DNA of 26,900 nucleotides from a virus, in IMG/VR virus record IMGVR_UViG_3300010354_000516, positions 1-26,900 of that record, one strand, 5' to 3'. Below the pieces are notes generated by a model. The model searched no databases, was not told the DNA's origin, and saw nothing but the letters and a program-made list of their open reading frames with translations. Both the position numbers and the translations under genes were made by a program. Positions 1 through 24,541 of the stretch are shown here, one piece after another. The stretch's first letter is position 1; the number at the start of each line of letters is the position of its first letter.

Positions 1-200
1 TATGGGTAAACGACCAAATAAACCTTGGCACAGACACGGTTGGAAGTTATGTAGAGTCACTTGTCGCCGGCACTGGGATAACGCTCAGCAATAACTCGGG
101 CGAAGGCGCTACGCCAACAGTTGCAGTAACATCTAACACATACGACGCATATAACTCGTCCAGAAATGTAGAAATAAAACTCTTGATGGAGGTCATGTAA
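1..200 (+). CDS. C-terminal end of a tail-fibre-like protein (5' truncated by window edge)
   Basis: An open frame enters from the left edge (first full codon at base 3) and ends at the TAA at 198-200. About 65 residues are visible. They contain the segments DTVGSYVESLVAGTGITL and EGATPTVAV. This pattern (DTVG.YV..L.AGTGIT....GEG.TPT.AV) recurs in fibre and other structural proteins of aquatic phages and has the alternating small/polar look of beta-structured fibre shafts. The stop codon overlaps the start of the next gene (TAATG), so translation is probably coupled. The gene lies directly upstream of the adhesin-like genes, which supports a fibre role. The N-terminal part and true length are outside the window. 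Confidence 0.7.
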   Translation, partial: WVNDQINLGTDTVGSYVESLVAGTGITLSNNSGEGATPTVAVTSNTYDAYNSSRNVEIKLLMEVM

Positions 201-532
201 TGGCATTGACGCAAAAAAGACTATTCGGCCCAGCTGCAGCTGTTACCTCTGCAACAGACGATGCAACCGGGAGATACCTTGTACCGTCGTCCACCACAAC
301 AATCGTAAAACAAATTATATTTTGCAATACAGCTGCAAGCGCTGCAACTGTAAGGGCCGGTGTTGGAACTACGGCAACCGCAGCCAACAGGGTGATTTCC
401 GACTTGACATTAGCCGCGAATGAGACTGTGTCATTTAACTGCTCATTGGTAATGACAGCAGGCGAAAAATTATTTTTTACAGCCAATGCTACAACGGTAT
501 CAATAACCGCAAATGGCATCGAGGAGACCTGA
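200..532 (+). CDS. Small beta-rich virion-associated protein, unknown function
   Basis: This 110-aa protein starts at an ATG overlapping the previous stop (TAATG) and ends in a TGA that overlaps the next ATG (ATGA), so it is translationally coupled on both sides. It is rich in Thr, Ala and Val with alternating hydrophobic residues, including VKQIIFCNTAASAATVRAGV near residues 36-55 and LTLAANETVSFNCSLVMTAG later. This resembles the single beta-sandwich accessory proteins of phage tails, but I cannot assign a named family. There is no signal peptide or membrane segment. Its position between a fibre end and two adhesin-like proteins suggests a fibre or adhesin accessory. A plain hypothetical protein remains possible. 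A reverse-strand frame over the same bases looks like a shadow because its translation is low in complexity and lacks coupling. Confidence 0.75.
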   Translation: MALTQKRLFGPAAAVTSATDDATGRYLVPSSTTTIVKQIIFCNTAASAATVRAGVGTTATAANRVISDLTLAANETVSFNCSLVMTAGEKLFFTANATTVSITANGIEET

Positions 533-1245
533 TGAGTGGAATATCTCGTTATCCGGCTGCAAACGCATTTGCTTCGTTTTCTGATGCGCCTGATTCTGTT
601 TATGGGACAGGCATGGATGGTGATGCGACATTAGACGGCTCTACGACCGTTCTTGGTATGGCGCCATCATCAAGTGTGTACACGATGACAAAAGATTTAT
701 ATTTTGATGACCTAACAATAAATGCAAGTGTTCGTTTAAACCCAGCCGGTTATAGAATATTTGTAAAAAACGTACTGACATTTGCAGGAAATAACGCAAC
801 AATAGGTTTTACGACAGGGTTTTCAACCGCTGGCTCAATTTATCAAGGGGGGGCGGCAGCAACTGCCGTCACACATTCACTCGGCGGTTCTGCGACTGGA
901 TACACGGCCACAGCACCAACAGCAGCTATGGGTGGAACAGAATATTTCAAAGTTCCCCAGCAGGCAATAACTGGCTATTCACTAACCGCTTCCGGTGGAC
1001 CAACATGGCTTAGGGGTGGCGCTGGCGGCTCGGGGCAAGCTGGGGGAGGGGTTGTTATTCTCGCTGCTCGTTATATTTCTGGCCCTGCTTCTGGAAACAC
1101 TGGATACATAAAAGCGCCAGCAACTGCTCCTGCTGGTGGTGGTGTAATCATAATAGTTTCCACCGGAGCAGCGTTACCTGCAACCGTATCAACAGACGTT
1201 ACTGGTCAAAATGCAGGAACAGTAAATTACATACAGTTGGTGTGA
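532..1245 (+). CDS. Gly-rich adhesin-like tail protein (paralogue A)
   Basis: A 237-aa protein whose ATG overlaps the previous TGA. The N-terminal ~90 residues carry VYGTGMDGDATLDG, then a YFDDLTI strand and YRIFVKNVLTF. The next gene repeats the same order of motifs (VYGTGSDGD, YYNNLTV, FRIFVKNTATI), so the two are tandem paralogues. The C-terminal half is Gly-rich (LRGGAGGSGQAGGGVVILAA) and ends with a GGGVIIIVST strand. This organisation, a beta-helix-like start followed by Gly-rich loops and hydrophobic strands, recalls phage fibre-tip adhesins that use polyglycine segments. It lacks the His-rich insertion and most collagen-like triplets of its neighbour. Receptor binding is inferred from composition and position; no catalytic motif is seen. 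Confidence 0.75.
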   Translation: MSGISRYPAANAFASFSDAPDSVYGTGMDGDATLDGSTTVLGMAPSSSVYTMTKDLYFDDLTINASVRLNPAGYRIFVKNVLTFAGNNATIGFTTGFSTAGSIYQGGAAATAVTHSLGGSATGYTATAPTAAMGGTEYFKVPQQAITGYSLTASGGPTWLRGGAGGSGQAGGGVVILAARYISGPASGNTGYIKAPATAPAGGGVIIIVSTGAALPATVSTDVTGQNAGTVNYIQLV

Positions 1246-1246
1246 T

Positions 1247-2584
1247 ATGTCTGGTGTTGATAGGTATGGTTCGCCAACAAGAACACAAAGAAAAGGAAAT
1301 GACTGGGTATACGGAACTGGCTCTGATGGCGATGTAACCATAAGTGGAACAGTGACACTTACCTCGGATAAATACTATAACAATCTTACTGTTCCGCTCG
1401 GAAATATTCTTTTAACAAACGGATTCAGGATTTTTGTAAAAAATACAGCAACAATAAATGGGGTTGTTGGGATAGGAAAAGTAACCGGGAACATAGATGG
1501 CTCGACCAATGGAACCATATCATCACCAGATTCAGCAGTTAATTGGGGAACCGTTGCTGGTCATGTATCGGCAACAATTTCATATCGTACTGGTGGAATG
1601 GGTGGTGGCTCTGTAAGACCTAGTAGTCCACCTGTTCTTCCAGAATATATTGTCAAAAGAATCGCATCTCTAAGTGGCATATATCTAGATGCATCATATG
1701 GAGATATAACACCAGTCCCAATATATGGTGGAGTGAGTGGAACATATGGTTCTTCTGGAACGCCAGCAACTTCATATACAAATTCAAGTCCTGCTCCGGC
1801 TGGATTTACAAACACTTGGCCGAATAAATCCGGTTCGGCGGGTTCAGCTGGTTCAGCTGGTTCAGCTGGTTCATGGCCCCCAAACGCACATACTGTTGGT
1901 GCTGCTGGTGGGCGTGGATATACGGGGGCAACCGGTGGCACTGGAACAAATGGAAGTGCACCGAATCCACCTATCGCTGCAACTGGCGGAGTAGGGGGGG
2001 ACGGAGCACCCGGCGGTGGCATTGTTGCTATTATGGCTAAAACAATTACTGGCACAGGGACTATTATGTCTCTTGGCATGATTGGAAGCAGTGGCTCCGC
2101 TGGCACAACATCTCCGGCCGGACCAAATGGTACGCCCGGTGCAACTGGTGCAACCGGGGCAGCCGCTCCAGGCTATACCGACCACCACCATCATTCGGCC
2201 ACAATCCATGAACCGCATACATGCTGCGGTGGCCATGCTCATGACCCCGGTTCTTATCATAAACACGTATACGTTCCACCATCGCACCACACTCACCACC
2301 ACAATCATTCCGCCGTAATACACGCCCCGTGCTGCACGCCGGGTCCACATTATCCCGGCGGAGCAGGTGGGGCCGGCGGAGCGGGTGGGGCTGGCGGAAC
2401 TGGCTCTCCCGCTGTAACGGGTGGAACAGGGAAAAGGGGTGGAGCTGGTGGCGGAGGGGCCATAATCATAATTACAGAGACAACTCCGGCAAATCTAAAC
2501 TATGACGTACGGTCTGGAACAACTGCTGACTCTGATACGTTTTCAGCATCAGATGGCTCAACATATATAATATTGAATTCTTAG
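1247..2584 (+). CDS. Large Gly-rich adhesin-like protein with collagen-like runs and a His/Cys-rich insertion (paralogue B)
   Basis: A 445-aa protein starting one base after the previous stop. Residues 1-70 share the VYGTG.DGD / NNLTV / RIFVKN framework of the upstream paralogue. Residues 196-209 are tandem Gly-Ser-Ala triplets. Residues about 215-265 and 280-309 contain Gly-X-Y runs such as GTPGATGATGAAAPG (295-309). Residues 313-368 form a segment with 18 His and 4 Cys in 56 residues, made of two related halves (HSATIHEPHTCC and HSAVIHAPCC). Residues 371-387 are Gly-Gly-Ala repeats, followed by a C-terminal GGGGAIIIITET strand. Low complexity, tip-like strands and position suggest a receptor-binding adhesin, perhaps metal-stabilised. 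No enzyme motif is present. A non-fibre decorating protein cannot be excluded. Confidence 0.75.
   Translation: MSGVDRYGSPTRTQRKGNDWVYGTGSDGDVTISGTVTLTSDKYYNNLTVPLGNILLTNGFRIFVKNTATINGVVGIGKVTGNIDGSTNGTISSPDSAVNWGTVAGHVSATISYRTGGMGGGSVRPSSPPVLPEYIVKRIASLSGIYLDASYGDITPVPIYGGVSGTYGSSGTPATSYTNSSPAPAGFTNTWPNKSGSAGSAGSAGSAGSWPPNAHTVGAAGGRGYTGATGGTGTNGSAPNPPIAATGGVGGDGAPGGGIVAIMAKTITGTGTIMSLGMIGSSGSAGTTSPAGPNGTPGATGATGAAAPGYTDHHHHSATIHEPHTCCGGHAHDPGSYHKHVYVPPSHHTHHHNHSAVIHAPCCTPGPHYPGGAGGAGGAGGAGGTGSPAVTGGTGKRGGAGGGGAIIIITETTPANLNYDVRSGTTADSDTFSASDGSTYIILNS
1832..1873 (+). repeat. Tandem 9-bp repeat coding Gly-Ser-Ala triplets
   Basis: One diverged unit (1832-1840) is followed by three exact copies of GGTTCAGCT (1841-1867) and a partial fourth (1868-1873). 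The repeat stays in frame inside the adhesin gene, so slippage would change protein length in steps of three residues without breaking the frame. Confidence 0.85.
2351..2401 (+). repeat. Degenerate Gly/Ala-coding tandem repeat
   Basis: A run of near-identical 9-bp units of the type GGCGGAGCR / GGTGGGGCC encodes consecutive Gly-Gly-Ala triplets just after the His-rich segment of the adhesin-like gene. It is markedly GC-richer than the surrounding AT-rich DNA. Confidence 0.7.
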
Positions 2585-2593: not shown

Positions 2594-2836
2594 ATGGGAA
2601 TTTTTGACAATATCGACAATAGTGAAAAAAGAAGAATAGTAGACATTGAGCTGTCTACTGCAAAAGTCCATCTTTATGGTCTATTAATACAGATAGGTAT
2701 TGACCCGGACTCTTTTAACCACGACGAGTGGTCTGAACCGATAGATATGGGCGGAGAACCAAGAGGTAGGGTTAAGCACTATATTGACCTAATTGCCACA
2801 CTTGAAGAAAAAAGAGCTGCACTAACCAATGAATAG
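2594..2836 (+). CDS. Small hypothetical protein
   Basis: An 80-aa acidic protein with a clear AGGAG ribosome binding site. I do not recognise it. It appears mainly helical: an N-terminal amphipathic stretch (SEKRRIVDIELSTAKVHLYGLL), a loop with Trp and Asp (DEWSEP), then a second helix (HYIDLIATLEEKRAAL). There is no Cys, signal peptide or membrane segment. Its last 8 bases overlap the next gene, so the two are co-translated. The position between adhesins and the oxygenase gives no firm function. A small chaperone or assembly factor for the upstream adhesins would fit, but this is speculation. Confidence 0.65.
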   Translation: MGIFDNIDNSEKRRIVDIELSTAKVHLYGLLIQIGIDPDSFNHDEWSEPIDMGGEPRGRVKHYIDLIATLEEKRAALTNE

Positions 2837-3227
2837 ATATATCGCCGTTCCATCGGCGATGTGTATAGATGGAAAAATTCCAAGTGAGGCTATTAGGTTA
2901 GCCGGCATCCTATCTATAGAAATTAAAACAATTGATGATTGCGATGTTGTTCATGTTGCAAATGAACCATCGATAAGGCAAGTGTCGTACTCTCCCGTAT
3001 ATTCAATCGGAAAAATTTGGGACCTAGATATAGTTGATGAATTTTTAGATATGACCACTGGTGTCAAACTGTTAATTGACGGACAAGAATACGAACCTAA
3101 AGTGCAGGAGCGTCATGCTGCAAAATTCAGGATTAGACTGCATTGCGGGGGAAAAAAACAAATATTTTTAGTTGCCCAAAATGAGCAATCTATGATTGCG
3201 GAAATAGAGGAAAATCGTGAAAGTTGA
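2829..3227 (+). CDS. Hypothetical protein
   Basis: A 132-aa protein starting at an ATG inside the end of the previous gene and ending at a TGA that lies 11 bases inside the oxygenase gene. The sequence mixes beta-like segments (IEIKTIDDCDVVHVAN, GVKLLIDGQEYEP, KFRIRLHCGGKKQIFLVAQ) with an acidic C-terminal helix. I recognise no family and see no catalytic or metal motif. The tight overlaps place it in the same translational unit as the 2OG oxygenase. Confidence 0.65.
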   Translation: MNRYIAVPSAMCIDGKIPSEAIRLAGILSIEIKTIDDCDVVHVANEPSIRQVSYSPVYSIGKIWDLDIVDEFLDMTTGVKLLIDGQEYEPKVQERHAAKFRIRLHCGGKKQIFLVAQNEQSMIAEIEENRES

Positions 3228-3783
3228 AGAACTTGCTACGTGTATAAATTTGTATAGCGAAGTTTTTGAACCTTTTGAATTTATGCACGAGGTTAACCAA
3301 GATTTAGATAACGAATGGTCAGAAGTTCAGTGGGTGCCATCATCAACAGGTATCGGTGTGGTTGGAAACCATAGGACATCTGCCGAAGTTGACATATCGC
3401 ACCTGGAGCACATGGACACATCTATGGCAAAAAAATTCAAGCCAATATCAAAAACTCTTCTTGCTGATGTAGTTGAAGATTACAAAAAAGAATTCATGGT
3501 TCAGTCATCCAGGTACGAGGGATGGAGATTGCTTAAATATCACGGAGGCGGTGAGTATCATGCACACTACGACCATGCTCCGCACAATGAGAGAATCTTT
3601 AGCATCGTCGCTTTCATGGAAACGCCAGACGGTGGTGGGCAGCTTGAGTTCCCATTTTTTGGTGTGACAGTTGAGGCAGTTGCCGGTAGTGCGGTCGTGT
3701 TTCCGGCCAATTTTCCATACCTACACATAGCCCACCCCGTAACATCCGGAACAAAGTGCAGTTTAGTGACATGGTTCAAGTAA
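3217..3783 (+). CDS. 2-oxoglutarate/Fe(II)-dependent oxygenase, prolyl-4-hydroxylase-like
   Basis: A 188-aa enzyme starting at a GTG preceded by GAGG at 3207-3210. The double-stranded beta-helix signature is complete. The facial triad is H117-Y118-D119 and H170, within HIAHPVTSGTK, and K180 sits where family members carry the Arg/Lys that binds the 2OG carboxylate. The segments GGGQLEFPFFG and GSAVVFPAN match the usual core strands leading to the distal His. Family enzymes hydroxylate Pro, Lys or other residues, or small molecules, using O2, 2OG and Fe(II). Such genes are common in aquatic phages, where substrates are mostly unknown. Here it sits downstream of a collagen-like adhesin and upstream of a halogenase, overlapping its neighbours. 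The family call is strong; the substrate is unknown. Confidence 0.88.
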   Translation: MKVEELATCINLYSEVFEPFEFMHEVNQDLDNEWSEVQWVPSSTGIGVVGNHRTSAEVDISHLEHMDTSMAKKFKPISKTLLADVVEDYKKEFMVQSSRYEGWRLLKYHGGGEYHAHYDHAPHNERIFSIVAFMETPDGGGQLEFPFFGVTVEAVAGSAVVFPANFPYLHIAHPVTSGTKCSLVTWFK

Positions 3784-4919
3784 AAAATATAAGCCAGCTG
3801 AATATTGAAGAACAAAACTATTTTGGTTTTGTAGGGTACCATTCTGCAGAAATAACCATTACAGCCCTGGCCCCTGATGGTGAATTTGAGTATTTAGATT
3901 TTGAGGCGTACAGCCACACACAGGGAACACTAATTAAATTTAATAAACTTCCAGAGTTTGGCTACACCCCATGGTCAATGAAAATAATTGGCTCTAGCGG
4001 AGAAGAGGAGCCGATGCAATGGGTCAATTATGAGGATAGTTTTGATATCTGGGAAAACAGAGAAACAGAGCCACATTCCTTTCTTTCCTTTATGAAATCA
4101 CAAGATATGCGCGCAACGCTTAATCACAGAGTTGTTGACGTATCTCGCAGGTGCGATAGCAATATGTTTGGTCCAGCCGTGGGTTATTTTCCTCAAGATG
4201 GAATAAAACCAACTTCAATGGACCTAGAGGTCATAAAAAATTACAACGCTGCTCTTTTTAGGCCAGTAGTAAACGTATCCGGCATAGCACACATCACAAA
4301 TATTAATTTTCGTGGAATAGGAATGACGTGGAGAAATTGGCCAATAGTTACCCTATCTGCCAAAACTTTGTCTGGGTGTCTCCGCCAGGTTATTGAATGG
4401 CGTGACCTGCGGGTGGCCGGTTTATCCAATGACCAAATCGCTATTGATGCTTTGAACTTTGTTGAGCAATTAAAAATAACCCAGGAAATGATTGATGAGC
4501 TAAAACAGACTGAAGTGAGAATGCCGGTAGAAAGATTTATGCTCGGTTATGGCAACCCGCGTCACGGTTTTTCCGAGACAGGAATTCTGCCAGAGAGCAT
4601 CAAAGCGCTGTTTGCAAAACAGGTGGTCTATAGAACGCTTTCAACATTGGAAACCAAACACCCACTTCACCCGCAATTTAGTTCAGAAATCAAAACTACT
4701 GAAAAACAAAGACAGCAAAATTATATAATTGAATTCGTTTCAAAAGTGATGCCGGGCACTATCAGCGTGGAACAGATAACAGTTGAAGACATATATAGAG
4801 AAGTGTTCAGACAACGTTATAAAGATGAACCAAATGGTCGTGGACCAATTCATCCCGTAGATATGAATATAACGGAAAAAGCAGTATTGGCCGCGAGGTT
4901 CTTTGATGCTCAACAATAA
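3756..4919 (+). CDS. Unknown 387-aa protein between oxygenase and halogenase
   Basis: The long frame begins at GTG 3756 (weak GGA upstream) or at ATG 3771, both inside the end of the oxygenase gene. The stop at 4919 lies 14 bases inside the halogenase gene. The N-terminal ~90 residues look beta-rich (GYHSAEITITALAPDGEFEY). The middle and C-terminal parts look helical, with conserved-looking blocks (FPQDGIKPTSMDLEVIKNYN, NINFRGIGMTWRNWPIV, MLGYGNPRHGFSETG). It is rich in Trp, Arg and Asn. I recognise no family, cofactor-binding loop or metal ligand set. Overlap on both sides with two redox enzymes makes a partner or carrier role plausible, but this is inference only. Confidence 0.75.
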   Translation: MQFSDMVQVKNISQLNIEEQNYFGFVGYHSAEITITALAPDGEFEYLDFEAYSHTQGTLIKFNKLPEFGYTPWSMKIIGSSGEEEPMQWVNYEDSFDIWENRETEPHSFLSFMKSQDMRATLNHRVVDVSRRCDSNMFGPAVGYFPQDGIKPTSMDLEVIKNYNAALFRPVVNVSGIAHITNINFRGIGMTWRNWPIVTLSAKTLSGCLRQVIEWRDLRVAGLSNDQIAIDALNFVEQLKITQEMIDELKQTEVRMPVERFMLGYGNPRHGFSETGILPESIKALFAKQVVYRTLSTLETKHPLHPQFSSEIKTTEKQRQQNYIIEFVSKVMPGTISVEQITVEDIYREVFRQRYKDEPNGRGPIHPVDMNITEKAVLAARFFDAQQ

Positions 4920-6387
4920 ACAGCTTTCTTTTTGTATTGTTGGTTCCGGTACTGCCGGTCTAATAACTTCAATTGTTTTAAGACAGGCATTCCCGTACTC
5001 CTCAATCAAAAATATATCGTCCAGTAAAATTGGAATTGTCGGAGTCGGAGAAGGAAGTACCGAGCATTGGCGAATGTTTATGGACAAATGCAATATAGGT
5101 ATCGAGGATTTGATTAAAAATACCGGAGCAACACATAAATACGGAATTCGTTTCGAAAATTGGACCAACAAAAGGCCCGATTATTTTCACAGCATTTCCG
5201 GAGTCGAAGAGATTAATACATGGGGAATTATTGGAGAGTATCTCAGTTTCATAGAACAGGACAAATCCATAACAAGCCAAACTGGCTCCGTTGGTTTAAT
5301 AAAAAACAAGATAGTCAGAGATGGCTTGCATGGAAACACAAACCAATATCATTTTGATACATTTATGCTGAATGACTTTCTAACTGGTATTTGTTTCAGC
5401 AGGATGATTCAATTCTACGATGATGAAATAAAAAACATAAATTTGACCACCAGCGGATGTATAGAGTCTGCCGAGCTTGTATCAGGCTTGCGTGTTGAGG
5501 CTGATATTTGGATTGATGCAACTGGGTTTAAACGGGAATTGATGAATAGGCTTAATAACAAGAGCTGGCAGTCTTTCTCAAATTATTTACTTGTTGATTC
5601 AGCTATTGCATTCCCGACTGAACACGATAAAAGTGGAACAATAAAACCATATACCAGAGCGCGGGCTGCTGGAAGTGGGTGGATGTGGGAAATTCCCACA
5701 CAAAATAGACGCGGAAACGGTTATGTTTACTCATCCTCACACATAAGTGGGGACGCTGCATTGCTAGAGGCGCAGTCGATGTCCGGCTTCGCTGTTCCAC
5801 AGATACGTCAATTTAAATTTGACCCCGGTTATTACAGGGAGCAATGGCAAAAAAACTGCGTTAGCGTCGGTCTTGCTTCCTCGTTTGTTGAACCACTGGA
5901 GGCAACCAGCATAGGAAGCACAATAATCCAGGCAATGAATATTGCTCAATACTCTGCGTCGTACATTCCCGGTTGTGAAAAACTTGTATCAGACTATAAC
6001 AAAAAAATGGAAGCAGTCATGCTTAATATTAGGGACATGATACGACTCCATTATATTTCTGATAGAAAAGACACTGAATTCTGGAAAGATGCAAACTCAA
6101 TGCCGATACCGGATTCTTTGCAAAACTTGCTAGACGCATGGAGTGAAAGACCTCCTGCGCATTCAGATATAGCAAACAACGGCTCAATTATGTTCTTAAC
6201 CCGCCACTTTGTCCATGTTGCCCAGGGTCAAAATTTAATTGCTACGGAGCCTAGCTCTCTCGTAATGGACAGAATGGCCATAAGAAGTTTCATAGAAAAA
6301 AAGTCAGACAATATTCGGTCGAGTAGATATTCAAAAGAGTTGGTTGACCACAAAGAAGCGTTAATGGAGACAGTCGGTGAAGATTAA
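4906..6387 (+). CDS. Flavin-dependent halogenase (tryptophan halogenase family)
   Basis: A 493-aa protein from ATG 4906 (GAGG at 4895-4898; TTG 4903 is possible). Close to the N-terminus is the FAD-binding loop GSGTAG, followed by GVGEGST. The diagnostic halogenase motif WxWxIP is present as WMWEIP (W259, W261). K78 in THKYGIRFENW aligns with the catalytic Lys79 of PrnA, and E332 in EPLEAT aligns with Glu346. The Ser that follows that Glu in PrnA is Ala here. Length matches the family (~500-540 aa). These enzymes use FADH2, O2 and halide to form HOX, which the Lys directs to an aromatic substrate. A cyanophage member, VirX1, is known to iodinate diverse substrates. No flavin reductase is encoded here, so reduced flavin would come from the host. 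Substrate and halide preference cannot be read from the sequence. Confidence 0.92.
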   Translation: MLNNKQLSFCIVGSGTAGLITSIVLRQAFPYSSIKNISSSKIGIVGVGEGSTEHWRMFMDKCNIGIEDLIKNTGATHKYGIRFENWTNKRPDYFHSISGVEEINTWGIIGEYLSFIEQDKSITSQTGSVGLIKNKIVRDGLHGNTNQYHFDTFMLNDFLTGICFSRMIQFYDDEIKNINLTTSGCIESAELVSGLRVEADIWIDATGFKRELMNRLNNKSWQSFSNYLLVDSAIAFPTEHDKSGTIKPYTRARAAGSGWMWEIPTQNRRGNGYVYSSSHISGDAALLEAQSMSGFAVPQIRQFKFDPGYYREQWQKNCVSVGLASSFVEPLEATSIGSTIIQAMNIAQYSASYIPGCEKLVSDYNKKMEAVMLNIRDMIRLHYISDRKDTEFWKDANSMPIPDSLQNLLDAWSERPPAHSDIANNGSIMFLTRHFVHVAQGQNLIATEPSSLVMDRMAIRSFIEKKSDNIRSSRYSKELVDHKEALMETVGED

Positions 6388-7147
6388 AAATTTTAATCTG
6401 AATAAAATTAAAAAAGTAAAACCTGGAAATTTAAGAATTACAACAATAGACAACCGCTTTTACAACGATGTCCCGTTTGTTAATTCTAAAAAATCCCTAC
6501 CCAGATGGTTTAGAAGCATACATAAGGGGAATTTTTCAGTTAGGTCATGTTCAGGAATTTCTGATTTTTTGGAAATTGGAGCAACAATCCCAGCGTGGAC
6601 AAGTTTTAAGTTTACCCCAAATATAGAGAGCGGTTCATGGGACTGCGAGACTGGCTCGCTAAATCCAATGCCAACAGACTTTCAGATGCAGATGGTCAGC
6701 GGTTTTCCTTTTCATCAAACAGGTAGCTGCCCAATGACACACGCCAGGAAAATTGAAAAAATGGCTTATCCAAAATTGATAACCCCATGGAGAATCCAGA
6801 CTGCGCCAGGCTGGTCAATACTTGTGCTTCCAATTTATTACGAAGAAAACAGTGATTATTCAGTCTTGCCAGCAGTTGTCAATACGGACTATTACCAAAT
6901 CGTAAACATAGTTTTAAACGTAAAAACAGATGTTGAATTTTTAATACAACAGGGGACCCCATTGGCCCACATAATTCCAATTCAAAGGAAAAACGATATT
7001 AAAAACATTGAATGCATAGATGAAAAGTTTTATAAATATGCATCATCTGGAATGTATTTAACTGGCGGAATTTCTCCTGCCGGCAGCACTGGCCTTGCAT
7101 ACAGAAAAGCCGCAAAAATAGTTGATTCAGCAATCAACAAAGATTAA
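6377..7147 (+). CDS. Conserved phage protein of unknown function, downstream of halogenase
   Basis: A 256-aa protein starting at GTG 6377, with GGAG at 6366-6369, inside the end of the halogenase gene. From memory it resembles a family common in cyanophages and related viruses, with an N-terminal LP.WF block, a Cys followed by a D-hydrophobic turn (here RSCSGISDFLEIG), then PWRIQTAPGWSIL, a VVNTDYY-like segment (V/L-D/N-T-D-x-Y) and QQGTPLAHIIPIQR. The latter half is beta-rich, ending with AGSTGLAYRKA. The biochemical function of that family is not known to me. It is the last gene of the rightward operon, and its stop lies 6 bp from that of the opposing gene. Association with halogenase and oxygenase genes suggests a shared pathway, as inference. 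Confidence 0.75.
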   Translation: MKIKNFNLNKIKKVKPGNLRITTIDNRFYNDVPFVNSKKSLPRWFRSIHKGNFSVRSCSGISDFLEIGATIPAWTSFKFTPNIESGSWDCETGSLNPMPTDFQMQMVSGFPFHQTGSCPMTHARKIEKMAYPKLITPWRIQTAPGWSILVLPIYYEENSDYSVLPAVVNTDYYQIVNIVLNVKTDVEFLIQQGTPLAHIIPIQRKNDIKNIECIDEKFYKYASSGMYLTGGISPAGSTGLAYRKAAKIVDSAINKD

Positions 7148-7153
7148 AAATGC

Positions 7154-7423
7154 TTAATTAACATCTACCGCGACCCATTTTCCAATTGGGCATTCGGCAT
7201 AGGCGAGCTTCGTCTTTAGATTCATAAAACAACCGCACTTACGGCACTGTTTTGTGAGGTCAATTAGGTACTCGCATTCGAGACACATATCCATGCGTTC
7301 TTTTGCCGTCGCCTCGTCGGCATATTCAGTATCTGGATTGATGAACGCGGCCGGCGATACCTTGCCCGTCGACTGACGTTCGGCATTCCGTTTTTTCCAT
7401 TCTTGCCAGGGCGAAGATGTCAT
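7154..7423 (-). CDS. Small zinc-ribbon protein (CxxC...CxxCGCF...C type)
   Basis: An 89-aa protein with a putative four-Cys zinc site: CLEC, then CRKCGCF, MNLKTKLAYAECPIGKW at the C-terminus. This pattern (CxxC, about 10 residues, CKKCGCF, K.KL....CP.GKW) is a recognised small family in aquatic phages, where I recall it being annotated as a domain of unknown function (DUF6171-like). It usually sits among baseplate or tail genes, as here. The N-terminal half is charged and probably disordered (WQEWKKRNAERQ). It follows the 68-aa gene by 4 bp and is the last gene of the leftward tail operon. A structural, nucleic-acid-binding or assembly role is possible; none is demonstrated by the sequence. 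Confidence 0.8.
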   Translation of the reverse strand: MTSSPWQEWKKRNAERQSTGKVSPAAFINPDTEYADEATAKERMDMCLECEYLIDLTKQCRKCGCFMNLKTKLAYAECPIGKWVAVDVN

Positions 7424-11034: not shown

Positions 11035-12495
11035 CTATACACTCACAACTGTGTATTCAATATCAATGTCATCTACAGACAGAATTGGCAAAGTGCCCTT
11101 ATTCAGGAATAACAAATCATTGCCATGCTGTGGCAGCCAATCCGAACCAGTCGGTGTCAGGGATAGTGATGTTACGTATGCGACGCCGTCTATTGAATTA
11201 ATCAGGGATAACAATGTATTGTATCTAATTCTGTCTTCATTAAGAGAGAAAGAAGATGGGTTCAAATATGAAATCAGGGCTGACTCAATTGCATTCTGAA
11301 CTGCCTCAAGGCTATATATGTCAGACACGCTTACGCTACCCGATATTTCTAGCGTAACGAGTGTTGGGTCTACGATTGTGCACTGTATGCCGGCCTGCAC
11401 GCGCGATGCCACCTCTGATAGGAGTTCAGTTTTTTCCGACCCTGTCAAAAATCTGTTTATTCCGTATGCAAAAATCGTAGTGTAACCACCAATGTCCTCA
11501 CCAGCATAGGCTGAGGCGGAAACATTCGTACTCGCAGAGTTGGATGCCGTTTTTAAGAAACTAAATGTTGTATCAGTTGTGGCTGTAATTTGATGTTCGC
11601 CATCGAATGTTGCGCTAACAGAAGCATTGAATGTTTCAAATGAGATTACATCTCCAACTATATAAAGGTGTGGAGATTCTGTTGTGATTGTCGCAATATC
11701 GGAATCAAGATAAGTGTAAATGCATCCAGTAGTACGTTTTGTTGTAATATCGCCATCCAGGTCATCGCCATTTGTTAGGTCGTATGTTTTAGACCTACCA
11801 ACAATATTCGGATATGTTGTTAACAAAAATGAGTCGACCTGATTTGGTGTTGTTAAACAGGAGCTTAATGATTGCAAATATGCTGTCGCTCCAGAAAGAT
11901 AATCTCCGTCACCGTCTGGTTCCGTACCATTAACAAAATTGGCAGGGGTAGAAACAACAACATATGCAATATCCGTACCTGAAGTTATAACAGACATTGT
12001 CTCGCCGGCAATAATTGGGGGAACATATCCGACATTGATGCACTCAACGGTGACAGTGGCTGATGGGTAATCTAGTGTTTCCTCTAAATCAACTGCGTCT
12101 ACAGTCGTTGACTCCGTGGTTTGAAACACATACTCGGCAAACTCACCGGCAAACGTAGTAGAATATACAAAGGCTGTGCCAGACGGAATAACCCCACCGT
12201 CATACGTGGAAAGCGTAATGGTTACATCGACCTCGGCTGGCGTACCCTGATTCCTCGTGTATCCAAGAATGGAAACAAGACCAGCCATTAGGCGAGACGG
12301 TATGCGGTTTATTGTTGCGATGCTAAGCGAGCTAATATATGCCGCTGCCTGAAACATGGCGTCCTCTGGTGTACCAACGCGAAAGTTAAAATCCGGCAGC
12401 GTAAGTCTGGCTACAGCAAGAGAATCCCTGTATATATCACCGGGATTTTTGTCGAAAATTCGTAAGTCAATGTATTGTGAAAAATCTGCTGGCAC
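11035..12495 (-). CDS. Baseplate J-like wedge protein
   Basis: A 486-aa protein of the Baseplate_J family. The N-terminus (MFQAAAYISSLSIATINRIP) is the typical helix-rich region. It is followed by RLMAGLVSILGYTRNQGTPAEVDVTIT and GGVIPSGTAFVYST, the characteristic J core with A..P..G....G..F. The second half includes PTLVTLEISGSVSVSDIY and the helix QNAIESALISYLNPSSF, as in the usual C-terminal domain. Start GTG 12495 is supported by AGGAG at 12502-12506. It is part of the wedge that forms the baseplate periphery with the gp25- and gpI-like proteins on each side. An insertion near residues 230-310 (TTKRTTGCIYTYLDSDIATI) makes it slightly longer than typical. Confidence 0.88.
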   Translation of the reverse strand: MPADFSQYIDLRIFDKNPGDIYRDSLAVARLTLPDFNFRVGTPEDAMFQAAAYISSLSIATINRIPSRLMAGLVSILGYTRNQGTPAEVDVTITLSTYDGGVIPSGTAFVYSTTFAGEFAEYVFQTTESTTVDAVDLEETLDYPSATVTVECINVGYVPPIIAGETMSVITSGTDIAYVVVSTPANFVNGTEPDGDGDYLSGATAYLQSLSSCLTTPNQVDSFLLTTYPNIVGRSKTYDLTNGDDLDGDITTKRTTGCIYTYLDSDIATITTESPHLYIVGDVISFETFNASVSATFDGEHQITATTDTTFSFLKTASNSASTNVSASAYAGEDIGGYTTIFAYGINRFLTGSEKTELLSEVASRVQAGIQCTIVDPTLVTLEISGSVSVSDIYSLEAVQNAIESALISYLNPSSFSLNEDRIRYNTLLSLINSIDGVAYVTSLSLTPTGSDWLPQHGNDLLFLNKGTLPILSVDDIDIEYTVVSV

Positions 12496-16745: not shown

Positions 16746-19700
16746 TTAACTTCTTTCCTGCATCGACTGTTGTTTAGCGCTTATTTTGGCCATGACAGCA
16801 TTGGCTATTTGTTCTGGCGACTGATTCCCGCCATTGATTTCAAAAGTATAATAATTTACAACACCAGAACTCGTGGATGTCCCCATATTCCCCAGGTTTC
16901 TTATGGATGTTGTATCGCCGATTCCAGCACCAGGGACAACATGTAAGTGCCTAGAGCCAGCTGAACCATGGAATTCAGCAAAACCACCGTTTGCTCTTGC
17001 AAGCGTTGCGTACCTCCCGAGATTTTGGCCAACAAGGTCTATTGCCCCTCCAGTGACGTGGTCTGAACTTGGTGAGCCCAGGTTGTAATTACGTAGTGCT
17101 GATGTGATTGTTCGCTTACCGGTAAGTTGGGAATCAATAGCAGAATGCCTTGCCATTGTTTGAGACAACTTGCTAGTTGCCGTGTCCCCGATTGAGCCAG
17201 AACGTGGAGTACGGGTATCGCCGGTACTAATTTGATTAGGTGGCACAAGTTTTTTGTTGGTATCATCCCACGCAAGACCGGCTTGCCACCATGCCGGCGC
17301 ATCGCTAAGTGGGTTCATCATGAATGAATTAACGAGCTCTGTAATGCCACTCTCAATCAATCCAAGTTTTTCAAGAGATTTTTGGTCTAGGTCGGCGATT
17401 GTGTCTAGGTTGTCGGGGATTGAACGCTGTTCTCCGGCTATTCCGGTAGATGCCAACATATCTTCAATTTGTCCAGATGTTTTACCAGTTAGTAAATTAA
17501 ATATACTTTGCGGAGTAACTCGCCCGCCTGCTCCAAATTGTTGTTCAGGTTTGCCAAAGTTGGAAACTTGTTTCATAAAATTCTCTAGCGTTGCGAAGTC
17601 CATTCCGAGAATCTGACGTTCTATGTCGGGAGCATTCATTCGATATCCAGCACCGGCGAGAATTGCCTGTAGCTGCGTTGAGTAATCTTTTGCAAATCCA
17701 CTCTTTAGTCCGGCAAGAGATTCCTGCATCCCCTCGTTTGCGGCAAAGTCCGCACCAAACCCTTCAAAAATTTGTCCTTTTCCAAATGCACCAGCATCCT
17801 GGCCCATCCCAAAAGCTTCAAATGTTGCAAGATATGCCTGTGTTGCATCTCCACCGGCAGCCGTCAGCGCAAGATTAAAGTAATTCTCCATCCGCTTATT
17901 TATGACTTTTTGACGGCCACCCTTTGACTTTGTTTTTGACAGCTCTGAACCAAGCGCGGTCATCTCCTGGTCTAGCGCTAGCTGCGCATCTTTTGCTTCA
18001 CGTCTTTGCGTAAATGGGTTTTTGCCGGCTAGGAATCTGTCTGATGTTGCAGCATTGAAACCGGCCGCTGTTTTTAAGACATTTTTTGTAAATTTACCAA
18101 GTAGGGTGTCATATTTTATTGTAGCGTCATATAGGTTTACGCCAAGCTCGCGAGCCAATACTTCAAGTTCTGGCACCGTTTTCCCGGTCGCTTCAGTCAG
18201 GTCGGCGAGTCTATTCGTGACGACGTCATTATATTTGCCTAATAGCTCAATTGTCCCGCCCTGTCCGGTAAGGGTTTCAAGGCTCGCTGAGGCATGTTTA
18301 AAGTCTGGGCCACCAATCATTTTGTTAAGCTGCTCTTTGGTTATGGTCAGACCAAAGCTTGATTGATTTTCATAGATACGGGTAAGGGCTTGTGCTGCAG
18401 CCTCGCCAGCTAATAGCTTTTGATTAGAGCCAAAACCTGGAAGAGGTTCGGTAACCATTCCGCCATACCCACCAGTTTTGGCACTCGCACCTCGATTTTC
18501 TTTAATTAACTCATCGGCCTTTTCTTTTGAGTATGACGCACGCACAGAAGCTTCGTAGGGCGTTAAACCCTTTGCAATATATTCATCATATTTTTTCAAT
18601 TTATCTTCTTGAAGTGATGGAAGAACACTCTGTTTAATCCCCAGTGCAAAATTTTGTAGGCGTTGGAGATTGAATTTTGCATCTCTAAATATATTCTGGA
18701 AAGCACCTGGCGTATTGGCCCTTAGCGCCCCACCCGACTGCAGTATGGTCTGATTTTCTGCAAATTGTCCAGCCGCCGCCGTAGCAAGGCCTGTGTATAT
18801 TGAGCCAATACTTTCCTGCGCTGCTTTTCTTGCTTGTTTTGCAATTTCTTTTCCTCTATTTATGGAGGACATTATCGCCCCAAATATTCCGCCAATTACA
18901 AGTCCAGCCATCGCTCCATATGGCCCAACCATGGCACCCATAGACGCACCACCTATTGCACCACCAAGAACGGCGGAACGGGTGCCTCTTGAGGTAGCAG
19001 CTGTACCAAGGCCGGCAATTCCAAGGCCAAGACGCGGGTCGCTTTGCCCCATCATTCCGCCCAGCGCTATCGCCCCACGACTTTCTTCCGGCACAAAGTT
19101 TGCCTGAGAAAGGAGACCCAGACCAGCGGAGACACCAAATTTAGCCATGCCACTTTGCGCAAAACCAACGTTATATGCGCGACCAAATTTGCTGTACTGG
19201 CGGAAAAGTCTATTGCGGTCTCGCATAAAGTCAATGTCGGCTTTCATTCCTCCAATAAAACCGCGCTCTCTCTTTATTGCGTCACGACGTGCGCGTAAAC
19301 CAGCTACACCAGAACCCCTGCCTGTCGCCGGGTCGTAAGAACCCTCAATATCGTAGTAATCCCCAGTTTCGTAGTTGAATGCTCCGGAATTTGCATATCC
19401 AGCAAACCCGCGAATGCCCCCAATCCCGCGCCTGACGCCACGCTGCAACCTGTCCATCCCTGAGCCAATGCGCGTACCAATATTGATTCGAGTATTACGG
19501 AAACCTTCAGTAAGTGATACACGGTCGCGTGAAAGCGGGTGGTCGTATGGCATCCTTCCGCGACCATATAGGCCAGGAAGAGGTGCGCCACCTGCTGGTG
19601 GCGTTGCCTGGATTGCCTTTATTAGCTGTGACCTGGTCATTCCAGAATCAACTGGAATTCCTATACCAACAGCATATTCTGCTAAATCTCCGCGTGACAT

Positions 19701-21746
19701 TCTGGTCATCGCATTAAATCCGGTTCTTGTTCCACGGCTAGTAAATAAATCAGTAGCGGCGAATGTTATACCCCTACCAGCGCCGTACCTATCATTGAAC
19801 CTTCTGTTCTGACGCTGATAGAAAGTGGAGCGCTCAACTGCTTTTCGTGACCCGGCTAGAACCGACGAGAACATTGTTTGCCGTGGGTCTTTATACATTT
19901 CCCCAATCGGCATATAACCCGGTGAACCAAACTTGGCGTATGCTCGTTTTTGCAATTTGTCATCGAGCGATACATTCCCAACAATATCAAGCGCACCGGT
20001 TCCGCCACCACCGGTAGCACCACTAGCCAAACGACCGGATGAAGCAGGGGATGAAATTTGCGGAGCTACTGGACCAGCCTCGCCATTTACATAAACTTGG
20101 TCAGCGGTAACTATCATTTTTTGCGGATTAAATGCACCCACACCTGGCAGGACTCGTCCCTTAATAGAGGCCATCCGTTTGCCCATGATTGACCCACCCA
20201 GTAGCGGACCAAGCGCTCCAAGCAAACCGCTACCGGCTGATGATGTTATCAATTTGGTGACATAACTAAATATTCCAGCAAGGCCTTTTAGTGTGTCGCT
20301 AATAAATGGCCCCATGTTCTTAAACATTTGTTGAAGACCGCGAAAATATCTTGCCAAAATGTCTATGAATCGACCAACAGTGTGTCCAAACTCGGCCATG
20401 CTGTCTTTGTTCTCGACTAACAAATCCTTGAATTGGAAAAGGTTGTCGGACGCACGTTTGATGGCTTCCCAAATTGGGTCCCATGCTTTATAAAGAACTC
20501 TTGCGCCGTCTATTAACGGCCTTAGTCGGTCAAGTACTAAGTTCCATCCCCGCCTGAATTTGTCAAACCAGTCACCCATGCGTTCAAACATGCCCATAGC
20601 GTTAGGCAGATACTCGCGTATCATTTTGACCATCCAGTTGGATGCCTTATCAATCATCCCAACAAATCCATCGATATACCCTTGATATCCGATGGTTGAC
20701 TGAATGGTTCCCATAATCCTTGTTAAATCGCGACGAATAATTTCAAAAATATCGCCGAAGGCAACCTTTAATGGCTCGAGGAATTGGTCGCCAAAATCAG
20801 CAAAAAGAGTCCGAAGACGACTAAAGTAACCCTTGAGCGTGCTCATCAACGTTGTATTTACCGCATCAAACTGACCAGTAACACCACCGCGTTTTGCCAG
20901 GCCGCCAGACATGAGTAGGTCCTCAAAATCTTTTTTTGTCCTGATTTTTGCGCCCTTAAGCGCCTTCTCCATCTCTGGACCGAGCTTCTTTGCTTCTGCA
21001 ATTACCTGTGAAACATTTTTCTTCTTATCTCCGAGCGCTGCTAAAACGGCACCAACTTGCTCCAGCCCTTTCGCCGGGTCTTGTCCAGCTGAACCAAAAT
21101 CCATCAAAGCTTTTATTGCGCCAGTGCTGCCGGCTATTGCGCGAGAAGACATTGTTTTTGACATGCTCGCATAGGCTTTATTGAGCGCTTCTACACCGAG
21201 GGTGCTTAGGTCGGCGTCGGACTGAAGAGCCCTCATCGCCATTCTTGTCTGGTTCATGGCTGAGCCAAATTCTCTTGCGCCCTTACCCCTATAGGCAAAC
21301 ATGGCAGCCTGCTGTTCGCGAATTGCTGCAGAAAAAGCGGCAACTGCCATTGTTGCGCCGGCCGCTCCGCCGGCAAGAAGTTGCATCACACCCCGATATG
21401 CCTTCATGATTAACTGGCCCGCCACAAACGTCGCATGGACAGCTACCATCGTTGCGCTCAGCGCAAGCATTTGAACTATTACGCCCTTGATTGATTTGGC
21501 CAAAAATCCGGCAAGCATTTTTCCAGTACCGGCAACCATCCCGTCCATTTGGTCGAAGTTGCGCTTCCACTTGCGGGTCATTTCACCGATTGACCTAGTG
21601 TTGCGCTTGGCCATGTTCTCTATCTGCCTGCCACTAGAAAGGCGGCGCTCCATGGCCTTGAGACGGTTCATTTCAACCATGAGCTTCTTCAGCTCACGGT
21701 CATGCGACTCAACTTTAAGTACTATACTTACTTTTTCGTCTGCCAT
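16746..21746 (-). CDS. Tape measure protein with C-terminal M15-type zinc peptidase domain
   Basis: A 1666-aa protein starting at ATG 21746 with GGGGA upstream. The N-terminal ~60 residues are coiled-coil-like (SHDRELKKLMVEMNRLKAME). Hydrophobic segments near residues 87-142 and 925-965 (GGASMGAMVGPYGAMAGLVI) could insert into the host membrane during genome ejection. Its length implies a tail of roughly 250 nm, using the usual 1.5 A per residue. At the C-terminus, S1561-x-H1563-xx-G-x-A-x-D1570 followed by RHLHV (H1602) matches the SxHxxGxAxD...HxH zinc site of M15 (VanY/D-Ala-D-Ala) peptidases. Gly/Ser/Ala-rich linkers separate the parts. Peptidoglycan cleavage by tape measure proteins is established in other phages. 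Confidence 0.92.
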   Translation of the reverse strand: MADEKVSIVLKVESHDRELKKLMVEMNRLKAMERRLSSGRQIENMAKRNTRSIGEMTRKWKRNFDQMDGMVAGTGKMLAGFLAKSIKGVIVQMLALSATMVAVHATFVAGQLIMKAYRGVMQLLAGGAAGATMAVAAFSAAIREQQAAMFAYRGKGAREFGSAMNQTRMAMRALQSDADLSTLGVEALNKAYASMSKTMSSRAIAGSTGAIKALMDFGSAGQDPAKGLEQVGAVLAALGDKKKNVSQVIAEAKKLGPEMEKALKGAKIRTKKDFEDLLMSGGLAKRGGVTGQFDAVNTTLMSTLKGYFSRLRTLFADFGDQFLEPLKVAFGDIFEIIRRDLTRIMGTIQSTIGYQGYIDGFVGMIDKASNWMVKMIREYLPNAMGMFERMGDWFDKFRRGWNLVLDRLRPLIDGARVLYKAWDPIWEAIKRASDNLFQFKDLLVENKDSMAEFGHTVGRFIDILARYFRGLQQMFKNMGPFISDTLKGLAGIFSYVTKLITSSAGSGLLGALGPLLGGSIMGKRMASIKGRVLPGVGAFNPQKMIVTADQVYVNGEAGPVAPQISSPASSGRLASGATGGGGTGALDIVGNVSLDDKLQKRAYAKFGSPGYMPIGEMYKDPRQTMFSSVLAGSRKAVERSTFYQRQNRRFNDRYGAGRGITFAATDLFTSRGTRTGFNAMTRMSRGDLAEYAVGIGIPVDSGMTRSQLIKAIQATPPAGGAPLPGLYGRGRMPYDHPLSRDRVSLTEGFRNTRINIGTRIGSGMDRLQRGVRRGIGGIRGFAGYANSGAFNYETGDYYDIEGSYDPATGRGSGVAGLRARRDAIKRERGFIGGMKADIDFMRDRNRLFRQYSKFGRAYNVGFAQSGMAKFGVSAGLGLLSQANFVPEESRGAIALGGMMGQSDPRLGLGIAGLGTAATSRGTRSAVLGGAIGGASMGAMVGPYGAMAGLVIGGIFGAIMSSINRGKEIAKQARKAAQESIGSIYTGLATAAAGQFAENQTILQSGGALRANTPGAFQNIFRDAKFNLQRLQNFALGIKQSVLPSLQEDKLKKYDEYIAKGLTPYEASVRASYSKEKADELIKENRGASAKTGGYGGMVTEPLPGFGSNQKLLAGEAAAQALTRIYENQSSFGLTITKEQLNKMIGGPDFKHASASLETLTGQGGTIELLGKYNDVVTNRLADLTEATGKTVPELEVLARELGVNLYDATIKYDTLLGKFTKNVLKTAAGFNAATSDRFLAGKNPFTQRREAKDAQLALDQEMTALGSELSKTKSKGGRQKVINKRMENYFNLALTAAGGDATQAYLATFEAFGMGQDAGAFGKGQIFEGFGADFAANEGMQESLAGLKSGFAKDYSTQLQAILAGAGYRMNAPDIERQILGMDFATLENFMKQVSNFGKPEQQFGAGGRVTPQSIFNLLTGKTSGQIEDMLASTGIAGEQRSIPDNLDTIADLDQKSLEKLGLIESGITELVNSFMMNPLSDAPAWWQAGLAWDDTNKKLVPPNQISTGDTRTPRSGSIGDTATSKLSQTMARHSAIDSQLTGKRTITSALRNYNLGSPSSDHVTGGAIDLVGQNLGRYATLARANGGFAEFHGSAGSRHLHVVPGAGIGDTTSIRNLGNMGTSTSSGVVNYYTFEINGGNQSPEQIANAVMAKISAKQQSMQERS
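16905..17130 (-). other. M15 peptidase domain within the tape measure gene
   Basis: The domain spans residues about 1540-1612 and contains SDHVTGGAIDLVG with H1563 and D1570, and RHLHVV with H1602, the expected three zinc ligands. A Gly/Ala-rich tail and YYTFEINGG strand follow, so the peptidase sits close to, but not at, the extreme C-terminus. Confidence 0.8.
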
Positions 21747-23086: not shown

Positions 23087-24541
23087 TTAGACCACTGTTG
23101 AGGTCAGGTTTGATTTGACAATGTCTATTTCAATCTGGTCGCCGACGCTGCTGACGCGTACGCCGAGTCTTGCCTTAACCAGCCCCTCAGCTAGCTGAGA
23201 TGTTGGGTTGATTGAGGAATCACACTTGACAGTGTAGCCGTCGTCTAGCTGACGGCCATTTGCATCAAATGCTGGGTAAAGGGCGCCGATGTTTCTCATT
23301 ACTGTGAGTACAGCAAGGAGACGCGACTCAATATTTGCGAAGATTGTATTTCTGCCATCAATGGAGCTGAATACAACATCCTCAACTGTTCGGTAGCACT
23401 CCGTAACAATGCTGTTTATAACGTCTTGCTGTGTTATGTATCGGAAGTTCTCCGTATCAGCTGAGCATGAACGGGCGCCATATATGCGGACAGTATTCTG
23501 TATAACGCGAATTGCGTTGACGTAATTCTCGTCCAGGTCGTCACCAGTAACTTTATTTATTTCGGACTTAACACCGGTAATAAAACGCGCTACGGACAGA
23601 AGACCGGCACCAGGCATGTGGGGACCTACCTGGTTGTGGGCCAGTGCACGCTTTGCGGCAACATACCCAACCGGCGGAATAAACCGAGTAATTCCAGCGG
23701 TTGATGTCGGAGCCTCAACCCATGGGTAATACATTGCTGCGTGCTCGGCACCATCTTCGCCCTGAACTGTAAGCGCCTTTGCCTTGACAGCCGCAGCCGT
23801 TGAGTTCTCCGGAGCGTAAAGAAGTGCGATTCTGCTATATGCATTTGCATGGGCAATAAGACCACTCGTGACGGTCGCATCGCTTTCATCCGCACAGGCT
23901 ACAGCACCAGAGCCAAGAGCATCATTAAATAGCTCCAAAGCATCAACATATCCAGCTGATGTCACCGAGCTTGCGTCATCGTCGCCGGCACTGAGTGCGG
24001 TTGCACTGATTGCGTCCGGAATAAGAGCTGCGTCATCTAGTGATGCAATAACGTATCGCGATGCAATTGCGCTTAGGTTTATTCGGCCAACAGCTTGCGA
24101 GGAAGTCGAAACAGTTCCAGTTGAGTACTTCAAATCACCGTTGTAGTACAGGTTAATCTTGAAAGTAGAACCGGTCGGGTGTGTAACCTCTACCTCAACA
24201 TCACCGCTCCAGTCGCCAGCTCCGTTTGCTGTTAGTGTGATGACATCATCTCCGCCATCCTGAAGCGTTAGCTCGCCAATGGTGGCGGAGGCGCCAACGA
24301 CGCGAGCAACGTATGCACGCGTGCCACCCTCTTCAAAAAATGCCTCTACGGTTGGATGCAGGTAAGAAGTTGAGATGTAGTCGCCAAAGACATCCTCAAA
24401 GTCGGCGATGCTCTCAATCAGGATGGCCTCATCAGAGGGCCCACGCTGCGACAATCCAACAACAAAAAGCTGCGACGACTCACGTGTCGTTGCTGTTGAT
24501 GGGCCTGTTCTTACTGAAGTTGAAATTACTACGCCTGGCAT
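23087..24541 (-). CDS. Tail sheath protein
   Basis: A 484-aa protein with the classical sheath start, MPGVVISTSVRTGPS, and an early QLFVVGLSQRGPSDEAILI. The region from VFGDYISTSYLHPTVEAFFE to GGTRAYVARVVG is the typical sheath core (the F..GG..AYV.RV motif). The C-terminal part, TVRIYGARSC, then IFANIESRLLAVLTVMRNIG and VDIVK-like end strands, contains the region that interlocks adjacent subunits. The length is normal for the P2/SPO1-type sheath (400-500 aa). Start ATG 24541 has GAGGT upstream. Contraction of this protein drives the tube through the host envelope. Confidence 0.92.
   Translation of the reverse strand: MPGVVISTSVRTGPSTATTRESSQLFVVGLSQRGPSDEAILIESIADFEDVFGDYISTSYLHPTVEAFFEEGGTRAYVARVVGASATIGELTLQDGGDDVITLTANGAGDWSGDVEVEVTHPTGSTFKINLYYNGDLKYSTGTVSTSSQAVGRINLSAIASRYVIASLDDAALIPDAISATALSAGDDDASSVTSAGYVDALELFNDALGSGAVACADESDATVTSGLIAHANAYSRIALLYAPENSTAAAVKAKALTVQGEDGAEHAAMYYPWVEAPTSTAGITRFIPPVGYVAAKRALAHNQVGPHMPGAGLLSVARFITGVKSEINKVTGDDLDENYVNAIRVIQNTVRIYGARSCSADTENFRYITQQDVINSIVTECYRTVEDVVFSSIDGRNTIFANIESRLLAVLTVMRNIGALYPAFDANGRQLDDGYTVKCDSSINPTSQLAEGLVKARLGVRVSSVGDQIEIDIVKSNLTSTVV

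Follow-up and report, generated by a model that had tools for sequence, protein, structure and literature searches.

Why does a virus keep an oxygenase and a halogenase behind a pair of adhesin-like genes? The question is raised by a stretch of viral DNA of 26,900 nucleotides (IMG/VR record IMGVR_UViG_3300010354_000516, positions 1 to 26,900; this whole stretch is referred to as the window), on the plus strand of which the genes of a 2-oxoglutarate (2OG)-Fe(II) oxygenase (OXY) and of a flavin-dependent halogenase (HAL) follow those of two glycine-rich adhesin-like proteins (GR1 and GR2). In scans of related viruses that started from GR1, HAL accompanies GR2 without exception. We hold, with a little better than even confidence, that this plus-strand operon is a cassette which makes an adhesin and finishes it chemically, by hydroxylation and halogenation.

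The adhesin operon

The genes considered here are the following:

532..1245, plus strand: GR1, Gly-rich adhesin-like protein without the His domain, 47-92% identity in relatives
1247..2584, plus strand: GR2, Gly-rich adhesin-like protein with a hypervariable His-rich domain, paralogue of GR1 and candidate substrate
2594..2836, plus strand: S80, small conserved protein; the S80 cluster often reappears behind U256 in relatives
2829..3227, plus strand: S132, conserved protein, seen in relatives
3217..3783, plus strand: OXY, 2OG-Fe(II) oxygenase of prolyl-4-hydroxylase type, GTG start, PF13640
3756..4919, plus strand: U387, GTG start; an alternative in-frame ATG is possible at 3771
4906..6387, plus strand: HAL, Xcc4156/BrvH-like flavin-dependent halogenase, ATG start, in-frame TTG at 4903, PF04820
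6377..7147, plus strand: U256, phrog_7084, dUTPase-like fold, GTG start, related to a DUF6065-like family

The initial annotation of this DNA, made from the letters alone, had described an oxygenase-halogenase cassette at 3217-7147 that is co-translated with phage adhesin genes. The reading frames are complete, and stops and starts overlap as it reported (3217/3227, 3756/3783, 4906/4919, 6377/6387); translational coupling is at most implied by these overlaps. The position downstream of Gly-rich adhesins was borne out as well, and the extent has to be revised, as the unit starts upstream with GR1, GR2, S80 and S132.

Linkage of the halogenase to GR2

A scan of IMG/VR starting from HAL covered the best 80 of 128 relatives, which gave 38 clusters at 90% HAL identity, including the window and phage Syn9. 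In 35 of these 38, BLAST matches to GR1, OXY and U256 were each found in the same locus. Typically the genes run tail fibre, GR1, GR2, S80, S132, OXY, (U387 or a 235 aa protein), HAL and U256. Most relatives, to HAL identities as low as 43%, preserve gene set and order, and the median intergenic gap from GR1 to HAL is 1 nt. Given this gene set and order, the arrangement of the cassette is more than chance. The protein of about 235 aa that often lies between OXY and HAL (cluster c9; L025:7253-7960) appears Rossmann-like by eye and belongs to no Pfam family.

Because sampling from HAL is unable to display an adhesin occurring alone, two further IMG/VR scans were started from GR1, with different first sequences, retaining loci whose sequence continues for 7 kb or more past GR1 and clustering them by GR1 identity. 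After clustering at 95%, GR2 and HAL were both present in 49 loci and both absent in 6, and neither was found without the other (0 and 0); clustering at 80% gave 16 loci with both, 2 with neither and again none with one alone. The six loci lacking GR2 carry U256-like genes (6/6) and mostly an OXY-matching gene (5/6), and HAL in no case (0/6). Since the mixed classes are empty and the GR2-less loci are without HAL, HAL tracks GR2 and not GR1. In L065-L068 GR1 and GR2 have undergone inversion with respect to the cassette yet remain adjacent, just beyond it; the HAL of L201 is found on the opposite side of GR1, about 5 kb away. The synteny with Gly-rich adhesins for which the initial annotation had suggested a search was thus encountered in both GR1-first scans, and it was encountered again in cyanophages with another adhesin (see below).

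The accessory enzymes at the cassette vary and include extra 2OG oxygenases, a cytochrome P450 (L033) and, in GR2-less relatives, a PF11397 N-acetylglucosamine (GlcNAc) transferase. A changing enzyme set at the same place fits a protein-tailoring locus. The P450 gene is located at L033:11221-12468 on the plus strand (PF00067, 1.3e-25, with the FGGGIHYCLGAALAR motif), and the same cluster is present in L035; to our knowledge, phage P450s are rare. The transferase was observed beside oxygenases resembling prolyl 4-hydroxylases in viruses that possess GR1 and lack GR2 and HAL (L197:10715-11944 and L209:5910-7136, both of the examples tested). A prolyl 4-hydroxylase and a PF11397 GlcNAc transferase also constitute the hydroxyproline GlcNAc pathway of Skp1, and L197 and L209 join the same two enzyme types. 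In contrast to that pathway, these genes are viral and lie beside GR1, no Skp1 was seen, and the window carries HAL in place of the transferase.

The two enzymes

HAL is a complete flavin-dependent halogenase, as first annotated. It matches PF04820 with E=3e-95 and 320 bits (cut-off 21), and the GxGxxG and WxWxIP motifs are present as GSGTAG (G14/G16/G19) and GWMWEIP (W260/W262), together with the catalytic K79 and E330 (residues counted from the TTG at 4903). The catalytic Lys and Glu and the three glycines are invariant across 69 viral halogenases. In a single-sequence PDB search, the closest solved relatives are Xcc4156 (6y1w, E=1.8e-57) and BrvH (6frl, E=1e-56). A profile search had placed VirX1 closest; since Syn9 halogenases were part of the profile, this match is biased and was set aside, and the single-sequence search ranks Xcc4156 and BrvH first.

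Xcc4156 and BrvH are inactive on free tryptophan and have an open substrate site, for which peptide substrates were suggested by the authors (PMC5945002, PMC7336383). No long insertion interrupts the alignment of HAL with Xcc4156 across the region of the short substrate loop. Alignments with PrnA, RebH and Thal end at query positions 409-428, ahead of the long loop that grips the amino and carboxyl groups of Trp, and Xcc4156, without this loop, aligns to position 465. HAL is probably an open-site halogenase. Xcc4156 and BrvH differ from HAL in being bacterial or marine metagenomic genes with no known tie to phage adhesins. A further likeness is to MibH, with which BrvH has been compared (PMC5945002): MibH halogenates a residue within a ribosomal peptide, the chemistry proposed here for HAL. 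However, MibH serves lanthipeptide biosynthesis rather than a virion protein, and no MibH structure is among the PDB matches listed for HAL. Like HAL, VirX1 of cyanophage Syn10 (PDB 6qgm) is a viral member of PF04820 that has Lys79 and Glu as catalytic residues.

OXY was likewise annotated correctly as a complete 2OG-Fe(II) oxygenase, with a match to PF13640 (E=1.3e-11, 45.7 bits, cut-off 27) and the full triad H117, D119 and H170. Its best PDB matches are prolyl 4-hydroxylases (5hv0/3itq, 2jig; E=1.3e-5), and OXY resembles the collagen and peptide prolyl 4-hydroxylases, with which it shares the PF13640 core and the HxD...H triad; the similarity is, however, weak (E about 1e-5).

GR2 as candidate substrate

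Homologues of GR2 display conserved ends, Gly-rich stretches and a hypervariable His-rich region. In 48 clusters, the richest 150 residues contain on average 20.8% His, compared with 1.8% elsewhere, with 7 to 58 His per window of this size; median His content is 7.3% in GR2 and 1.4% in open reading frames in general. Every one of the 48 clusters has Tyr in its His-rich region, but only 28 have Trp there; Trp as sole target was rejected for this reason. The region is closed by [YWF]xGG in 41/48 clusters, which is possibly a modification site or simply a structural residue and is not used as proof. Three homologues (L050, L059, L071) contain an extra inserted domain that resembles, by eye from the sequence, variable-ligand (C-type-lectin-like) proteins.

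Position, composition and variability point to GR2 being a receptor-binding protein, and its composition may suggest a core of polyglycine-II helices. The gp38 proteins of T-even phages and S16 are glycine-rich tip adhesins, and GR2 resembles them in the alternation of Gly-rich with hypervariable segments and in its position by the tail fibre. GR2 differs in being larger and His-rich and in having no PDB sequence match. We know of no modifying cassette described for the gp38 adhesins of T-even phages or S16.

Recurrence in other phages

In cyanophage Syn9, three Gly-rich proteins (gp36, gp38, gp39) are followed by two halogenases, a U256 homologue (gp43; 27% identity to U256, E=3e-8 in tblastn) and a run of 2OG-type proteins. 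Syn9 is a close relative of Syn10, the source of VirX1, and this neighbourhood mirrors that of the window. Differences from the VirX1 type are that identity between the window HAL and the Syn9 halogenases is only about 25-30%, that the adhesin family is another one, and that the window has one halogenase. A search of phages with Syn9 gp38 gave 20 records, from which nine distinct phages were inspected: Syn9, P-TIM40, P-RSM6, S-RIM44, S-CREM1, S-WAM1, S-SZBM1, Sf-FP1 and Sf-FR1. All nine have a halogenase a few genes downstream of the gp38-like adhesin, followed by 2OG oxygenases or proteins with the 2OG-type motif. The order in S-CREM1, for example, is adhesins, halogenase, a 'triphosphate nucleotidohydrolase', a small protein, and nine 2OG/JmjC oxygenases in a run. 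Elsewhere, the halogenase of L064 lies behind two Gly-rich proteins that are unmatched by the GR1 profile, and that of the actinobacterial phage DSL-LC01 (L174:8103-10567) has two genes with collagen Gly-Pro-Thr repeats close upstream. In a list compiled from halogenases first, a Gly-rich gene lies at most 3 kb upstream in 5 of the 16 distinct phages inspected (Syn9, Sf-CH11, P-RSM6, S-RIM44 and DSL-LC01).

Adhesin linkage changes state at least four times on a tree of 68 halogenases, and unlinked clades separate the two big linked clades. The sister of the GR2 clade is itself unlinked (P-SSM2, S-H38, S-SCSM2R and marine single-cell viruses). This tree was built quickly and has some long branches, and the placement of DSL-LC01 and HTVC008M is unsure. 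Linkage was scored as any Gly-rich open reading frame within 4.5 kb; L017, whose GR2 is barely under the Gly threshold, was scored as linked because GR2 is present there.

In HTVC008M (L161:8974-10368) the halogenase gene is flanked by the two terminase genes, small and large, with a phytanoyl-CoA dioxygenase-like gene ahead, and four further 2OG-type genes come after the tail fibre region. The halogenase-bearing cyanophage S-SCSM2R (L179:1-6300) has glycosyltransferases, a radical SAM maturase, an amidinotransferase and a 2OG oxygenase clustered.

A proposed mechanism and its alternatives

The proposed sequence of events would be as follows. GR1 and GR2 would be host-binding proteins of the tail tip, and GR2, the presumed substrate, would be produced together with its modifying enzymes, probably late in infection. 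OXY would hydroxylate peptidyl residues (Pro by family precedent, with Asn or His possible), and HAL would halogenate GR2 on aromatic side chains (Tyr, His or Trp). These modifications would precede or accompany tail assembly, and might alter, for example, metal binding, stability or receptor affinity. S80, S132, U387 and U256 may be chaperones, substrate-presenting or accessory proteins. The initial annotation had already considered modification of an adhesin, which is supported here; that the virion is the substrate is what we infer.

Several points weigh against this proposal. The adhesin identity of GR1 and GR2 is suggested by composition and position; both were without a relative in the PDB sequence search, with no adhesin match in PDB for GR2 up to E=1. 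No one residue of GR2 stands out as the target; Tyr is in every His-rich region, but Trp in only 28/48. No flavin reductase gene was noticed within the cassette. The GR2 loci, nearly all of them on uncultured contigs, share ancestry, and the locus counts are therefore not independent. Finally, the link to adhesins had been expected to fail if the cassette occurred without these adhesins in unrelated positions and virions carried no hydroxyl or halogen modifications, and part of this was found: halogenases of P-SSM2, S-PM2, S-MbCM6, S-SSM7, S-B64 and others lie among genes of metabolism or replication, with no adhesin in the vicinity. Hence, the adhesin link is restricted to particular lineages and does not extend to all viral halogenases.

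The best survivor among the alternatives, itself unlikely, is auxiliary metabolism, in which the substrate of HAL and OXY is a free metabolite of the infected host (an indole, a tryptophan derivative or a pigment) and the product, for example, a protective or signalling compound. Related halogenases do lie among metabolic genes in P-SSM2, S-PM2, S-MbCM6 and S-SSM7, many free aromatics serve VirX1 as substrates in vitro (PMC8407142), and antibiotic protection of the host was proposed early for cyanophage prnA (PMC2984593). However, HAL follows GR2 without exception, the adhesin-first order recurs in cyanophages, and free Trp is rejected by the relatives Xcc4156 and BrvH.

We give a somewhat smaller chance to hitch-hiking, that is, to a cassette that rides with the adhesin through a tail-fibre locus, as a hotspot of recombination, without acting on the adhesin. 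Phage adhesin regions are variable, the accessory enzymes differ between loci, and HAL adjoins several unrelated Gly-rich adhesins. Against this stand the strict association of GR2 and HAL, an order kept down to 43% HAL identity, the invariant catalytic residues, the adjacency preserved despite local inversion (L065), and the lineages with GR1 only, which retain U256-like genes and mostly OXY without HAL.

Slightly lower still, we rank a role of the enzymes late in infection on the host cell, where they would modify its surface or receptor and so, for example, keep progeny from re-adsorbing. The cassette adjoins putative receptor-binding genes, and glycosyltransferases and surface-sugar enzymes lie near some phage halogenases (S-SCSM2R, S-SSM7). 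However, 2OG and flavin-dependent halogenases belong to the cytoplasmic kinds of enzyme, and HAL is accompanied by no conserved gene for secretion, the sole membrane-like neighbour being a protein of about 95 aa (cluster c7). That the His-rich domain of GR2 is a metal-binding tip like that of T4 gp37, with HAL and OXY serving another phage protein, is very improbable: HxH motifs do resemble metal-binding tail-fibre tips and His-rich regions are seen in GR2 homologues, yet HAL is missing exactly where GR2 is missing, though GR1 and U256-like genes stay.

Accessory proteins and genomic surroundings

U387 has no relative in Pfam, PHROG or phage records. Its predicted structure is confident (pLDDT 81, pTM 0.83), and comparison of the model with PDB folds gave no match (best E=0.056). 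Related proteins of about 220 aa sit behind U256 in other viruses. U256 matches phrog_7084 (E=5.5e-26) and adopts a predicted dUTPase-like fold (Foldseek E=1.1e-4, TM-score by target up to 0.75); an assignment as dUTPase was rejected, the Pfam dUTPase profile scoring 13.8 bits, below its cut-off of 22. A U256-related protein of L197 matches DUF6065 just under cut-off. As relatives of U256 also lie away from halogenases (S-RIM4, Sf-CH8, HSTV-2), U256 by itself is no marker of the system.

Further features of the window are:

200..532, plus strand: small protein upstream of the adhesins, phrog_20100-like (E=1.5e-5), kept ahead of GR1 in many relatives
11035-12495, minus strand: baseplate J, main tail operon
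23087-24541, minus strand: tail sheath, main tail operon

The cassette had been placed inside a structural operon. Instead, it ends a plus-strand adhesin operon that converges on the main tail operon of the minus strand, and it therefore lies outside the main structural operon. Next to it, at 7154-7423 and convergent with it, the minus strand encodes a DUF6171/phrog_13558 protein, relatives of which (cluster c8) flank the cassette at other loci. The tail operon includes a protein of 1666 aa (16746-21746, minus strand) with weak PHROG matches only. A scan for promoters gave chance level and one for terminators little above chance, and a DNA-level search against phage records gave no match.

The tail sheath is nearest (39%) to those of Gordonia and Arthrobacter myophages. 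Copies of the cassette occur in contigs of metagenome-assembled genomes, of Actinomycetota in L162 and of Gammaproteobacteria in L163. An actinobacterial host of the window virus is possible in view of the sheath affinity and L162, but L163 is gammaproteobacterial.

Implications

Phage halogenases have been treated as auxiliary metabolic genes or made the subject of antibiotic speculation (PMC10452541, PMC2984593). In the accessible literature, we found no phage halogenase tied to tail adhesins. The enzyme families and phage adhesins are already known; within the literature searchable, what appears new is their conserved pairing. As the pairing is kept in relatives and in unrelated phages, it suggests that the attachment proteins of some viruses are finished chemically by the virus itself. 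More tentatively, and at somewhat less than even odds in our view, several lineages of tailed phages may have repeatedly acquired a tailoring system by which their own receptor-binding proteins are hydroxylated and halogenated, with VirX1-like halogenases as modifiers of virion proteins.

This offers a possible answer to the question why viral halogenases exist, and the synteny makes their role directly testable on the cultured phages Syn9, Syn10 and S-CREM1. Halogenation of a virion, if demonstrated, would be categorically new. If the proposal is true, many 2OG oxygenases of marine phages would gain a purpose, and the cassettes would be a source of protein-acting halogenases for biotechnology. 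Such enzymes would widen the chemistry of attachment proteins, giving phage adhesins residues beyond the genetic code, and would add a new layer to phage-host recognition.

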